64,000 bases of DNA from Nocardioides palaemonis (GTDB taxonomy: Bacteria; Actinomycetota; Actinomycetes; Propionibacteriales; Nocardioidaceae), in NCBI RefSeq assembly GCF_018275325.1, contig NZ_JAGVQR010000004.1, positions 620,001 to 684,000 of the forward strand, written 5' to 3'. Each line of letters begins with the position of its first letter. The first letter of the stretch is position 1. Positions 8,601 through 60,867 of this stretch are shown piece by piece. A model generated the notes under the pieces. The model was not told where the DNA came from. It worked only from the letters and a program-made list of their open reading frames with translations, and did no database searches. A program made the translations under genes and the position numbers.

Positions 8601-8617
8601 CCGCCCGGCCGGTCAGC
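8596..8617. terminator. Bidirectional hairpin at convergent stop codons
   Basis: GCTGACCG (8596-8603) and CGGTCAGC (8610-8617) form an exact 8-bp stem with a 6-base loop. Each arm contains the stop codon of one of the two converging genes. There is no T-run, so termination by this hairpin alone is a guess. Confidence 0.4.
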
Positions 8618-9410
8618 CGGCGAGCGCGGCTGCCGCGGCGCGACGACGGTTGGCCTCCTGCGCGGCGGCGATCGCCTCGGCCGTCGCCGGCGGGCGCGGC
8701 TGGCGGCGCACCGGAGGACGCCCGGCGACGGCACGGGCCGCGTCCGCCGGGATCGGCGTGGCGGCCACGGCCGGCGCGGCCGACTGGCCGGACAGGAGCA
8801 GGCCGTGCTGCACCGCCCACAGGACCGCCTGGGAGCGGGAGGTCACGCCGATCTTGGAGTAGGCGCCGCGGATGTAGGACTTCACCGAGTTGATGCTGAG
8901 GCTGGTGGCCTCGACGATCTCCTGGTTGGAGCGGCCCGAGGCGATCATGCCGAGCACCTCGGTCTCGCGCGGGGTCAGCGGCCACTCGTCGGGGGCCTTG
9001 CGGCCGGTCCGCGGCTGCGCGGCGCCGGTGTCGACCAGGACACGGCCCTCGGCGATCTGCAGCAGGTCGCGCACCAGGCGGCGGGCCGGCAGGGACTTGC
9101 TGACGAAGCCGGCAGCACCGCGCGCCATCTCGGTCGAGACGGCCTCGGGCGAGCAGTCCCAGCCGAACGCGACCATCCGGGCCGGGAAGCGCTGGGGGAT
9201 GCCGCGCCCGCCCGGCGTGGCGCGGTGGGCGGAGGGTTCGTAGAGGGTGAGGTCGCAGATGGGGGCGGGCGCGTCCATCCGGTGCGGCACCACCGTGATG
9301 ACCGCGGAGTGCGGCTCGAGCATGGCGCGCATGCCGTTCACGACGAGCTCGCTCTCGTCAAGGATGGCCACCTTGATGTGGCGGATCGCGGTCGGGGTCT
9401 GTCGTTCCAT
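8613..9410 (-). CDS. LuxR/NarL-type transcriptional regulator with atypical receiver
   Basis: 265 residues: a receiver-like N-terminal domain followed by a LuxR helix-turn-helix (about residues 145-195, LTPRETEVLGMIASGRSNQEIV). The acidic pair D18/E19 and K105 (GFVSKS) of receivers are present, but the residue aligned with the phospho-acceptor Asp is Glu (E58 in CDLTLYEPS), and the usual Thr/Ser switch strand is altered. This suggests regulation without phosphorylation. The C-terminal tail is Ala/Arg-rich and low complexity. The ATG at 9410 is chosen because a sigma-B-type promoter ends 8 bases upstream, while the longer frame starts inside a repeat array. Likely a DNA-binding regulator; its target is unknown and autoregulation is possible. 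Confidence 0.85.
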   Translation of the reverse strand: MERQTPTAIRHIKVAILDESELVVNGMRAMLEPHSAVITVVPHRMDAPAPICDLTLYEPSAHRATPGGRGIPQRFPARMVAFGWDCSPEAVSTEMARGAAGFVSKSLPARRLVRDLLQIAEGRVLVDTGAAQPRTGRKAPDEWPLTPRETEVLGMIASGRSNQEIVEATSLSINSVKSYIRGAYSKIGVTSRSQAVLWAVQHGLLLSGQSAAPAVAATPIPADAARAVAGRPPVRRQPRPPATAEAIAAAQEANRRRAAAAALAG

Positions 9411-9418
9411 GCCGCCCA

Positions 9419-9446
9419 GTACCCCGGTGGATCGACCCGCATGCGC
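9419..9446 (-). promoter_or_regulatory. Sigma-B-type promoter of the LuxR-type gene
   Basis: On the minus strand, GCGCATGC (9446-9439), 13 bases, then GGGGTAC (9425-9419), 8 bases before the ATG at 9410. GCAT-N16-GGGTAC fits the GNNT-N14-16-GGGTAC/T consensus reported for Streptomyces sigma-B. The short distance implies a leaderless or near-leaderless transcript. The same arrangement occurs at 10267-10293 and 11085-11111. Confidence 0.6.
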
Positions 9447-9508
9447 AAACCCGGGACAAACTTTGGACAAACCTGGGACAGAGTACGGACAGACCCGGGA
9501 CGACGGGT
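9443..9508. repeat. Array of 11-bp direct repeats (GGACA(A/G)A units)
   Basis: Five units begin at exactly 11-base steps: 9454, 9465, 9476, 9487 and 9498. The first four start GGACAAA or GGACAGA and the last GGACGAC. A weaker sixth unit (GCGCAAA) starts at 9443. The array fills the spacer between the stop of the GAF-ANTAR gene (9511) and the -35 region of the LuxR-gene promoter, so the units face one side of the DNA helix upstream of that promoter. It looks like a multi-site operator for a cooperative activator or repressor. The reverse complement core TTTGTCC also resembles part of an actinobacterial DnaA box. Confidence 0.6.
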
Positions 9509-9510
9509 GC

Positions 9511-10173
9511 TCAGCCGAGCAGGCAGCTGGCGACCCGGGCGGCCTGGACCTGGGTGACGCCGGCCTCCAGCGCCGCGCGGGCCAGGGCGTCGCAGGCCTC
9601 GGGCGTGGTCACCGCGGTGCGGGCCGCCAGCAGGCCGACCGCGACGTCGACGATGCGCTGCTCGCGCAGCCGCTCGGGCGCCTCCTCGGCGCGGCGCAGG
9701 GTCTCGAAGCCGAGGTCCGCGTTGGTGATCGCGCCCGCCTGCCAGGCACCGAGCGCGGAGACGAGACCGTCGATGCGGCCGGTGAAGGCGTGGGGCGTCG
9801 AGGCGTAGAGGTCGATGGTCAGCACGGCGCGCCCCTGCTCGACCACGGGGAGCGAGACCGAGCTGGCGATCCCCTCGAACGCGCGCTCGCGCGCCATGTC
9901 GGCCCACTCACGCTCGTCGAGCGCGTACGTCGTGGGGGGTGACTCGGCCGAGCGGTGCCGGGCGGGGCGCGCCGGACGGCGCACGCGGGAGTCGACGTCG
10001 TCGACGAGGGTGAAGGTGAGGTCCTCGTCGAGCAGCGTCACGCTCAGCGCCACGCACTCGGGCACCGTACGCACGGCCCAGCCCTCGATCACCCGCAGCA
10101 GGCCCTCGACGTCGTCCACCGACAGCGTGACGTACTCGTCCAGCGCCTCCCTGCTCTGGGGCAGCAGCTCCAT
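9511..10173 (-). CDS. GAF-ANTAR domain protein
   Basis: 220 residues. The N-terminal half (about 20-150) has a GAF-like pattern with RAVLTIDLYASTPHAF near its end. The C-terminal 65 residues match ANTAR (RIVDVAVGLLAARTAV, ARVASCLLG), a helical RNA-binding module that acts as an antiterminator at paired stem-loops. The ATG at 10173 has AGGA five bases upstream, and the further upstream open frame is Arg-rich non-coding sequence. It may sense a ligand through GAF and control termination of a nearby transcript, possibly that of the LuxR gene immediately downstream; this is inference. No ligand residues could be identified. Confidence 0.75.
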   Translation of the reverse strand: MELLPQSREALDEYVTLSVDDVEGLLRVIEGWAVRTVPECVALSVTLLDEDLTFTLVDDVDSRVRRPARPARHRSAESPPTTYALDEREWADMARERAFEGIASSVSLPVVEQGRAVLTIDLYASTPHAFTGRIDGLVSALGAWQAGAITNADLGFETLRRAEEAPERLREQRIVDVAVGLLAARTAVTTPEACDALARAALEAGVTQVQAARVASCLLG

Positions 10174-10266: not shown

Positions 10267-10293
10267 GCGCATGCGGGTCGACCGGCGGGGTAC
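10267..10293 (+). promoter_or_regulatory. Sigma-B-type promoter of the HAD gene
   Basis: GCGCATGC (10267-10274), 12 bases, then GGGGTAC (10287-10293), 9 bases before the GTG start at 10303. GCAT-N15-GGGTAC fits the sigma-B-family consensus. It is nearly identical to the element upstream of the LuxR-type gene, including the GGGTCGA that follows the -35 box. Confidence 0.6.
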
Positions 10294-10302
10294 GGCGTCG
10301 CC

Positions 10303-10980
10303 GTGACCGATGCTCCCACCTCCTCGAACCCCGTCGTCGTGCTCGACCTCGACGGCACCCTCGTCGACTCCGTCTACCACCACGTGGTGGCCTGGCAGTG
10401 CGCCTTCCGCGACGTCGGGCTACCGGTCCCGGCGCTGCGGGTCCACGAGGCGATCGGCATGGGCGGCGACCGGCTGGTGGCGCACGTGGCGGGTGCGAGC
10501 GCGGAGGCGGCGGTCGGCGACGACGTGCGCGACCTGCACGACAAGCACTTCCGTGCCACGCTGCGCAGCATCACCGCCCTCGACGGCGCCTCCGACATGG
10601 TCGCCTCGCTGGCCGATCGCGGTCACCGGGTCGCCCTCGCCAGCTCCGCCGAGGCGGGCCTGGTCGACGAGCTGCTCGACCTCGTCGACGAGCGCTCCCG
10701 GATCGCGACGGTGGTGACCGCGTCCGACGGCGTGGCCAGCAAGCCCGGCCCGGAGATGGTCGAGGAAGCCGTCGCACGTGCGGGCGGTGGCACCGCCGTG
10801 GTGGTCGGCGACGCCGTGTGGGACGCGCTCTCCGCCGAGGCCGCCGGCGTTCCCTGCATCGGGCTGCGCAGCGGCGGGGTCGGCGCGGAGCGACTGCTCT
10901 CGGCCGGTGCGTCCTGGGTCTACGACGACCCCCGCGACCTGCTCGAGCGTCTCGACCAGAGCCCGCTGCGCGCGCACTGA
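10303..10980 (+). CDS. HAD-superfamily hydrolase (phosphatase, PGMB/GPH-like)
   Basis: 225 residues with all HAD motifs. DLDGTLVDS (about residues 12-20) holds the nucleophile Asp, ALASSAEAG is motif II, and KPGPEMVEEA plus VVVGDAVWDALSA are motifs III and IV. A helical cap lies between motifs I and II, as in phosphoglycolate phosphatase and beta-phosphoglucomutase relatives. Substrate unknown. The GTG at 10303 is chosen because it follows a sigma-B-type promoter by 9 bases and places the DxD motif at the expected distance; the open frame extends upstream through the promoter and antisense DNA. Likely stress-induced. An exact hairpin (11046-11073) lies downstream. Confidence 0.88.
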   Translation: MTDAPTSSNPVVVLDLDGTLVDSVYHHVVAWQCAFRDVGLPVPALRVHEAIGMGGDRLVAHVAGASAEAAVGDDVRDLHDKHFRATLRSITALDGASDMVASLADRGHRVALASSAEAGLVDELLDLVDERSRIATVVTASDGVASKPGPEMVEEAVARAGGGTAVVVGDAVWDALSAEAAGVPCIGLRSGGVGAERLLSAGASWVYDDPRDLLERLDQSPLRAH

Positions 10981-58146: not shown

Positions 58147-60867
58147 TCAGGACTTCTTGGCCGCCGTCTTCTTCGTCGTCTTCTTGGCGGCCGTCTTCTT
58201 CGCCGTGGTCTTCTTGGCAGCCGTCTTCTTGGCCGCCGTCTTCTTCGCAGGAGCCTTCTTCGCGCCCTTCTTGGCCGCCTTCTTCGCCGGGCCGCGCTCA
58301 CGCCGCTCGGCGAGCAGCTCGGCAGCACGCTCGAGGGTGATCGACTCGACGGTGTCGTCCTTGCGCAGCGTGGCGTTGTACTCGCCGTCGGTGACGTACT
58401 CGCCGAAGCGGCCGGCCTTCACGATGACCGGCTGGCCCGAGACCGGGTCGTTGCCGAGCTCCTTGAGCGGCGGGGTGGCCGCGCCGCGGCCGCGCTGCTT
58501 GGGCTGGGCGTAGATCGCCTTGGCCTGGTCGAGGGTGATGTCGAAGATCTGGTCCTCCGACGTCAGGCTGCGCGAGTCGGTGCCCTTCTTCAGGTACGGC
58601 CCGTAGCGGCCGTTCTGGGCGGTGATCTCGGTGCCGTCCTCGTCGGTGCCGACGATCCGCGGCAGGTCGAGCAGCCGGACCGCCTGCTCGAGCGTCACGG
58701 TGTCGAGGGTCATCGACTTGAAGAGCGAGCCGGTGCGGGGCTTGGCGCTCTTGGGCGCGTCCTCGGGCAGCACCTCGGTGACGTAGGGGCCGAAGCGGCC
58801 GTTCTTCGCGACGATCTGCAGGCCGGTGTCGGGGTGCTCGCCGATCACCTGCTCCTCGCCGGCCGGGTTGGCGAGCAGCTCCTTGGCCTTGGCCACGGTG
58901 AGCTCGTCGGGCGGCAGGTCGTCGGGGACGTTGGCGCGCACGGGCGCGGCGTCACCGCCGTCGGGACCGGGGCCCTCGACGTACGGCCCGTAGCGGCCGA
59001 CCCGCAGGTCGATGCCCTCCCCGATCGGGAAGGTGGCCATCTCCTTGGCGTCGATGTCGCCGAGCTCGGTGACGAGGGTCTTGAGCCCGATGACGTCGCC
59101 GCCGCCGTAGTAGAACTCGCCGAGCTCGGTGACCCGGTCGCGGCGACCGCCGGCGATGTCGTCGAGGACGTCCTCCATCGACGCGGTGAACTCGTAGGAC
59201 ACCTGGCGCGGGAAGTGGTCCTCGAGCAGGCGCACGACCGAGAAGGCCAGCCACGCCGGCACCAGGGCGGTGCCCTTCTTGTAGACGTAGCCGCGGTTGA
59301 GGATCGTGCCGATGATCGAGGCGTAGGTCGACGGGCGACCGATCTCGCGGTCCTCGAGCTCCTTGATCAGCGTGGCCTCGGTGTAGCGGGCCGGCGGCTT
59401 GGTCTCGTGGCCCTCCGGCGACAGCGTGGCGGCGGAGACGGCGGCGCCCTCGGTGAGGTTGGGCAGGCGGGTCTCGGCGTCGTCGCGGCGCTTGGAGGCG
59501 TCGTCGATGTCCTCGACGTAGGCCTTGAGGAAGCCGTGGAAGGTGATCGTGCGGCCGCTGGCGCTGAACACCACGTCGCGGCCGTCGGCGGCGGCGCCGC
59601 CGAGGCGGATCGTCACCGAGTTGCCGGTGGCGTCCTTCATCTGGGAGGCGACGGTGCGCATCCAGATCAGCTCGTAGAGGCGGAACTGCTCGCCCGACAG
59701 GCCGGTCTGGGCGGGCGTGCGGAAGGTGTCGCCGGCGGGGCGGATCGCCTCGTGCGCCTCCTGGGCGTTCTTGACCTTGGAGGTGTAGGTGCGCGGGGAG
59801 TCGGGGAGGTACTCCGCGCCGTAGAGCTCGCGGACCTGGTCGCGGGCCGCGCCGACCGCCGCGCCCGACAGGGTCGTGGAGTCGGTACGCATGTAGGTGA
59901 TGTAGCCGTTCTCGTAGAGGCGCTGCGCGACCGACATGGTCACGCTGGCGCTCATCCCGAGCTTGCGCGAGGCCTCCTGCTGGAGGGTGGTCGTGCGGAA
60001 CGGCGGGTAGGGCGAGCGGCGGTAGGGCTTGGACTCGACCGAGCGGACGGCGTACGACGTGTCGGCGAGGCCGGTGGCGAGCGCCTCGGCGTCGGCACGG
60101 CTGAGGTGGACCCGCTCGGCGCGACCCTTGAGCTCACCGGTGTTGTCGAAGTCGGCGCCGCGGGCGACCCGGACGTCGTCGACGCTGTAGAGCTTGGCGG
60201 GGAACATCCGCGGGTCGTGGCCGGTGCCGGCGTCGAAGGTGGCGTCGAGGTCCCAGTAGGAGGCGACCTTGAACTTCATCCGCTCGCGCTCGCGGTCGAC
60301 GACGAGGCGGGTCGCCACCGACTGCACGCGGCCGGCGGACAGGCCGGACATGACCTTCTTCCACAGCACCGGGGAGACCTCGTAGCCGTAGAGGCGGTCG
60401 AGGATGCGGCGCGCCTCCTGGGCCTCGACGAGGTCGTCGTTGATCTCGCGCGGGTTCTCGACCGCGGCCAGGATCGCGGGCTTGGTGATCTCGTGGAAGA
60501 CCATCCGGTGGACCGGCAGGCCCTTCGGCGGCTTGAGCTCGTCGAGCAGGTGCCACGCGATGGCCTCGCCCTCGCGGTCCTCATCGGTGGCGAGGTAGAG
60601 GGCGTCGGCGTCCTTGACCAGCTTCTTCAGCTTGGAGATGTGGCTCTTCTTGTCGCGGGGCACGACGTAGTAGGGCTCGAAGCCGTTGTCGACGTCGACC
60701 GCGAGGCGGCCCCACGGCTTGTCCTTGATCTTGGCCGGGGTGTCCGCCGCGTTGTTCGGGAGGTCACGGATGTGACCGATCGAGGACTCGACGACGTAGT
60801 CCTTGCCGAGGTAGCCGCCGATGGTGCGGGCCTTGGCAGGCGACTCGACGATGACGAGCTTTGCCAC
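58147..60867 (-). CDS. topA: DNA topoisomerase I
   Basis: 906 residues of type IA topoisomerase. The N-terminal TOPRIM domain has LVIVESPAKARTIGGYLG and ATDEDREGEAIAWHL; the catalytic Tyr is in GYITYMRTDSTTLS (about residue 322). Several C-terminal repeats with FGPYV/RYGPYL motifs replace zinc fingers, and a Lys/Ala/Thr-rich tail (AKKTAAKKT repeats) ends the protein, as in actinobacteria, where it raises processivity. It relaxes negative supercoils. GTG at 60867 is chosen from the start of the fold; GTG 60876 is an alternative. Confidence 0.95.
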   Translation of the reverse strand: MAKLVIVESPAKARTIGGYLGKDYVVESSIGHIRDLPNNAADTPAKIKDKPWGRLAVDVDNGFEPYYVVPRDKKSHISKLKKLVKDADALYLATDEDREGEAIAWHLLDELKPPKGLPVHRMVFHEITKPAILAAVENPREINDDLVEAQEARRILDRLYGYEVSPVLWKKVMSGLSAGRVQSVATRLVVDRERERMKFKVASYWDLDATFDAGTGHDPRMFPAKLYSVDDVRVARGADFDNTGELKGRAERVHLSRADAEALATGLADTSYAVRSVESKPYRRSPYPPFRTTTLQQEASRKLGMSASVTMSVAQRLYENGYITYMRTDSTTLSGAAVGAARDQVRELYGAEYLPDSPRTYTSKVKNAQEAHEAIRPAGDTFRTPAQTGLSGEQFRLYELIWMRTVASQMKDATGNSVTIRLGGAAADGRDVVFSASGRTITFHGFLKAYVEDIDDASKRRDDAETRLPNLTEGAAVSAATLSPEGHETKPPARYTEATLIKELEDREIGRPSTYASIIGTILNRGYVYKKGTALVPAWLAFSVVRLLEDHFPRQVSYEFTASMEDVLDDIAGGRRDRVTELGEFYYGGGDVIGLKTLVTELGDIDAKEMATFPIGEGIDLRVGRYGPYVEGPGPDGGDAAPVRANVPDDLPPDELTVAKAKELLANPAGEEQVIGEHPDTGLQIVAKNGRFGPYVTEVLPEDAPKSAKPRTGSLFKSMTLDTVTLEQAVRLLDLPRIVGTDEDGTEITAQNGRYGPYLKKGTDSRSLTSEDQIFDITLDQAKAIYAQPKQRGRGAATPPLKELGNDPVSGQPVIVKAGRFGEYVTDGEYNATLRKDDTVESITLERAAELLAERRERGPAKKAAKKGAKKAPAKKTAAKKTAAKKTTAKKTAAKKTTKKTAAKKS

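Follow-up and report, generated by a model that had tools for sequence, protein, structure and literature searches.

CarH and LitR proteins are known chiefly as switches of carotenoid genes. The published CarH repeat is nnnnTnnACAn (PMC9304148; PMC8156234). Among known systems, the operators of CarH in Thermus thermophilus, Bacillus megaterium and the myxobacteria come closest to the array discussed here, and operators that combine one full repeat with degenerate ones, as this array does, are bound (PMC9304148, PMC8156234); the myxobacterial protein, for example, binds operators in which a single full repeat has degenerate neighbours (PMC9304148). The LitR-LitS-crtE system of Streptomyces is similar in that an actinobacterial B12-binding MerR photosensor controls a sigma factor gene (PMC12705666). 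The class II LitR proteins of Pseudomonas, PplR1 and PmlR2, are of the same LitR/CarH family and use sites of the form TGTACA-N12-TGTACA, the half-site of which resembles TGTCCA (PMC9758184). One of these Pseudomonas sites overlaps a -35 element; in the Nocardioides array only the weak unit does. A limited search of the open-access literature returned no paper linking CarH with regulation in Nocardioides or with Dps.

The window is a 64-kb stretch of DNA from the soil bacterium Nocardioides palaemonis (G000:C4:620001-684000), and the related loci are also from Nocardioides. On the sequence comparisons described below, we consider it likely that an array of 11-bp direct repeats in this window is the operator of a CarH/LitR-type photoreceptor, and that CarH carrying adenosylcobalamin (AdoCbl) blocks the SigB-type promoter of a luxR gene in the dark and is released by light. 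The features of the locus are as follows.

8613..9410, minus strand: gene for a LuxR/NarL-type orphan regulator with a GerE HTH domain (luxR), the putative regulated gene
9419..9424, minus strand: -10 element GGGTAC, conserved in orthologous spacers
9441..9444, minus strand: -35 element GCAT of the SigB-type promoter; GNAT-N15/16-GGGTAC is kept in orthologous spacers
9443..9449, minus strand: weak in-phase unit TTTGCGC (plus strand GCGCAAA), overlapping the -35 element, from sequence
9454..9460, minus strand: unit 1, TTTGTCC (plus strand GGACAAA), 11-mer TTTGTCCCGGG, closest to the promoter, from sequence and motif score
9465..9471, minus strand: unit 2, TTTGTCCAAAG (plus strand GGACAAA), from sequence and motif score
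9476..9482, minus strand: unit 3, TCTGTCCCAGG (plus strand GGACAGA), from sequence and motif score
9487..9493, minus strand: unit 4, TCTGTCCGTAC (plus strand GGACAGA), from sequence and motif score
9498..9504, minus strand: unit 5, weaker, GTCGTCCCGGG (plus strand GGACGAC), from sequence and motif score
9511..10173, minus strand: ANTAR-like gene, the upstream neighbour, with a domain score just below the Pfam cut-off

Both genes lie on the minus strand, and the stop codon of the ANTAR-like gene (9511-9513) borders the array. A domain search detected no receiver domain in the LuxR-type protein (8613-9410). Read in the direction of transcription, the array runs GTCGTCCCGGG TCTGTCCGTAC TCTGTCCCAGG TTTGTCCAAAG TTTGTCCCGGG TTTGCGCATGC and is followed directly by the promoter GCAT-N16-GGGTAC and the ATG. 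The first-pass annotation had placed plus-strand units at 9454, 9465, 9476 and 9487, with GGACGAC at 9498 and a weak unit at 9443, and all of them are found there, each at an exact 11-base step from the next. It had also described the array as adjoining the SigB-type luxR promoter and filling the spacer up to the neighbouring stop codon, and the array does occupy this whole spacer. The promoter element CGCATGCGGGTCGA..GGGGTAC (9445-9419, minus strand) recurs nearly letter for letter at 10268-10293 on the plus strand, upstream of a HAD hydrolase gene (10303-10980).

A run of five GGAC words, each 11 bp from the next (9454-9504), occurs at one place in the 64-kb window, at 9454, and in none of 60 Markov-1 random sequences of the window's length. 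The array is likewise picked up by TRF, a tandem repeat search. The sole denser periodicity in the window is a 15-bp repeat elsewhere that is probably coding; it lies at 58153-58285 (CTTCTTGGCCGCCGT) and is probably the tail of a Lys/Ala-rich protein.

On the sense strand the unit reads TTTGTCC-N4, which is nnnTGGACAAA on the other strand. A pattern search for two exact TTTGTCC words separated by N0-N30 in 197 Nocardioides genomes gave 32 places, of which 17 have the N4 spacing of an 11-bp step (binomial 2e-17 against equal spacing) and two a 22-bp step. Inspection of the flanking sequence placed several of the arrays immediately in front of MerR-type genes that also encode B12-binding domains. 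Each of the 13 genomes in which an exact 11-bp pair occurs has a CarH homolog, against a base rate of 61/197 (Fisher 9e-8), as do 3 of the 11 genomes with off-phase pairs; the array-bearing genomes are mostly of one clade, and these counts are not phylogenetically independent. One genome with a 22-bp pair (G166) falls outside the homolog cut-off used, yet its array precedes a gene with MerR and B12-binding domains. Outside the genus exact 11-bp pairs are rare: of 297 genomes sampled across the class, 4 have them; exact TTTGTCC pairs there (L221-L225) have different N4 letters, namely GTCG, GTCA and GCAA.

A phased array or pair was found upstream of carH/litR-type genes, encoding MerR and B12-binding domains, in 26 of the 30 Nocardioides promoters examined. 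In the commonest design, two pairs are offset by 47 bp from start to start, and a -10-like TACCCT adjoins the second. Many Nocardioides have two tandem CarH homologs (L154, L155 and other carH loci, some of whose promoters were read). The N. palaemonis genome has its own CarH homolog, and arrays located by pattern searches lie at this gene and at three further places.

G000:C1:740255-741112: CarH/LitR-type photoreceptor gene (carH, protein P0001), distant from the window, assigned from domains and alignment
C1:740170-740234: array upstream of carH
C1:2373713-2373752: array at a SigB/F-type sigma gene, for which the best NCBIfam model is SigBFG, slightly below cut-off
C4:836787-836815: array at dps, of which the L076 ortholog is a ferritin-like protein
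C1:7537-7565: array at a fasciclin gene, adjoining an ECF sigma gene and an amine oxidase/DUF1365 gene

P0001 has MerR_1, B12-binding_2 and B12-binding domains, the composition expected of CarH/LitR, and residues 2-241 match T. thermophilus CarH (5c8d/3whp) at about 1e-29. Aligned to 3whp/5c8d, it keeps W-x9-EH and the cobalt lower-ligand His (WQRGQVTVAGEH and RHELG), which we take to have the roles they have in CarH. It scores 135.9 bits against the NCBIfam CarH equivalog NF052513, the best-scoring model for it, and the cut-off is 400, so P0001 is a family member but not the same protein by the NCBIfam standard. The putative cognate protein is accompanied by a matching array at its own gene, and the promoter of carH (gene at C1:740255) contains two 11-bp pairs; among the 16 MerR_1 matches in the genome, an array is found at carH only. 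A three-unit pattern was found in this genome at the luxR, sigma and fasciclin sites only. One pattern match (G000:C4:485087, L151) was discarded with a score of just 3.2 bits. In two species (L082:9675-10574, L076:9358-10221) the dps array has a gene for a MerR-DICT regulator close by; this gene was considered, and its own promoter (L143) has no array.

The motif links the array in the window to these carH promoters. A weight matrix was built from 88 units of carH promoters, with N. palaemonis and its sister species excluded, and on both strands of the 64 kb it ranked the window array first, four of its units together scoring 38.3 bits. All other places in the window scored 0 or less, and the random-sequence maximum was -3.9. 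The carH-derived unit reads CnnTGGACAAA on the other strand. Position 8 is A in all 88 units although it lay outside the selection criteria, and this invariant A, together with the selected TGT, gives TnnACA on the other strand, which is the published CarH repeat. An array of at least three tandem 11-bp direct repeats is expected of a CarH operator, with TnnACA in at least one unit and the rest degenerate. The window array has five units at exact steps. The full motif occurs in unit 2 only (TGGACA, plus strand, 9464-9469), which is also the top single 11-mer of the window at 21.1 bits, and the other units have GnnACA or CnnACA, with ACG in place of ACA in the fifth. This scarcity of the full motif counts against a CarH operator, as do the strand of the motif, which relative to the gene is the reverse of that in the published operators, the low equivalog score of P0001 and the lack of an array at luxR in other CarH-bearing Nocardioides.

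Three other assignments of the array have to be weighed. A 7+4 box architecture is typical of some OmpR/PhoB, SARP and BldC-type families, and it was this architecture that first suggested OmpR/PhoB or SARP boxes, a guess that was dropped once arrays appeared at carH promoters. That some such regulator of head-to-tail 11-bp direct repeats uses the array is improbable, since the arrays go together with carH promoters and with the presence of a CarH homolog in the genome, and the unit carries the TnnACA of CarH. The first-pass annotation had suggested the LuxR-type protein itself as the binder. The array does lie in the promoter of its gene, and self-regulation is frequent among regulators; LuxR/NarL sites, however, are usually inverted repeats, the arrays are also found at unrelated genes (carH, sigma, dps and fasciclin), and 18 of 20 ortholog promoters have none, which makes autoregulation through the array very improbable. 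Orthologous spacers without periodic units had been named beforehand as evidence against an operator, but what these 18 spacers count against is LuxR autoregulation and not the operator.

A likeness to the DnaA box had also been pointed out, and it holds in part. The actinobacterial DnaA box consensus is TTGTCCACA, and the units of carH promoters, often TTTGTCCACAG, contain it, but no unit in the window is TTGTCCACA and no such box occurs in 9443-9508. DnaA is, to our knowledge, universal, yet exact 11-bp pairs are confined to genomes that encode a CarH homolog, and a DnaA-box cluster is the least probable of these assignments. In all likelihood, then, neither LuxR nor DnaA is the protein that binds the array. 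The DnaA box within TTTGTCCACAG of carH promoters (L163-L184) might allow crosstalk, or might mislead searches for oriC.

For the operator of a CarH homolog the following mechanism can be proposed. In the dark, the adenosylcobalamin-bound protein would oligomerise, with its MerR-type DNA-binding domains head to tail on successive 11-bp repeats along one face of the DNA. A cooperative operator on one helix face beside a sigma-B-type promoter is what the first-pass annotation had proposed, and the sequence comparisons support it. The oligomer would cover the -35 region and block the SigB-type RNA polymerase. Blue-green light would cleave the Co-C bond, the oligomer would fall off and the LuxR-type regulator would be made. 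We infer the binding, its dependence on AdoCbl, the dark oligomer and the light-triggered release at the array from the analysis above. The same switch may act on carH, the SigB/F-type sigma gene, dps and the fasciclin-ECF sigma-amine oxidase/DUF1365 cluster, and the outcome would be a photo-oxidative stress regulon without carotenoids. The luxR gene is probably light-switched together with the sigma factor and DNA-protection protein genes.

The direction of control is less certain. If transcription of luxR is taken to start near 9412, the units extend from about -31 to about -92. The -35 GCAT (9441-9444) is overlapped by the weak unit at 9443-9449 only, and the strong units lie upstream of it, so that CarH might act as an activator or compete with one. 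In light, LitR of S. coelicolor is reported to promote the transcription of litS (PMC12705666), and a CarH operator that acts positively, through light activation or a dark activator, would be comparable. Such positive action seems unlikely, although less so than a regulator of another family. We favour repression, given that the weak unit lies over the -35 element and that the other arrays, those of dps and carH, lie on or beside core elements of their promoters, where a repressor would be expected; known CarH operators also repress (PMC8156234).

The luxR gene appears to be a recent target. The promoter GNAT-N15/16-GGGTAC, with the ATG about 9 nt past the -10 element (9408-9424, minus strand, in the window), occurs in each of the 20 orthologous spacers that were read, 18 by pattern match and two (L012 and L018, where the protein match begins later) by reading the spacer. 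Because the -10 GGGTAC ends so close to the ATG in the orthologs too, the luxR mRNA is probably leaderless. The array itself is found in 2 of the 20, N. palaemonis and its sister species G012 (90% protein identity), and not at the luxR promoters of other CarH-bearing Nocardioides such as G017, G019 and G029. In G012 the three nearest units are almost unchanged and the remaining spacer has diverged; conservation of unit 5 is not clear. Among the closest orthologs of the sigma gene, those of G012, G029, G017, G007 and G019 retain the array, and those of G052 and G044, two genomes with no CarH homolog, do not have it. On the sequences compared, the sigma-gene array is older than the luxR array. 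A second SigB/F-type sigma gene (G000:C4:615641-616318), a paralog of the array-bearing one some 4 kb before the window starts, has no array.

No phytoene synthase (PF00494) was detected in the N. palaemonis genome, which is 99.98% complete, and a classical carotenoid output is therefore probably absent. We lean slightly towards a broader reading, in which a B12-based photoreceptor without a carotenoid output now runs a general photo-oxidative stress network that includes a SigB/F-type sigma factor, dps, an ECF-sigma cluster and, newly, luxR. The SigB-type promoter of luxR would then make this a light-gated feed-forward loop.

A probable CarH operator that can be read in Nocardioides from sequence offers a testable regulon in a genome with no detectable phytoene synthase; it would comprise a two-component-type regulator along with Dps and a general-stress sigma factor. 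The recent gain of such an operator by a promoter that is itself conserved would be a clear case of regulon growth, and the new 11-bp unit could serve B12-based optogenetics in actinobacteria. Compared with the CarH operators of Thermus, Bacillus and the myxobacteria, the Nocardioides unit TGGACAAA has an extra conserved GG, and its motif is read from the other strand with respect to the gene. The promoter is SigB-type here and a housekeeping promoter there, and the target is a LuxR-type regulator here and carotenoid genes there. Unlike in the Streptomyces LitR-LitS-crtE system, the sigma factor is SigB/F-type and not LitS, and the Nocardioides genome has no detectable phytoene synthase. The class II LitR sites of Pseudomonas differ in their spacing, and PmlR2 uses a LOV partner.
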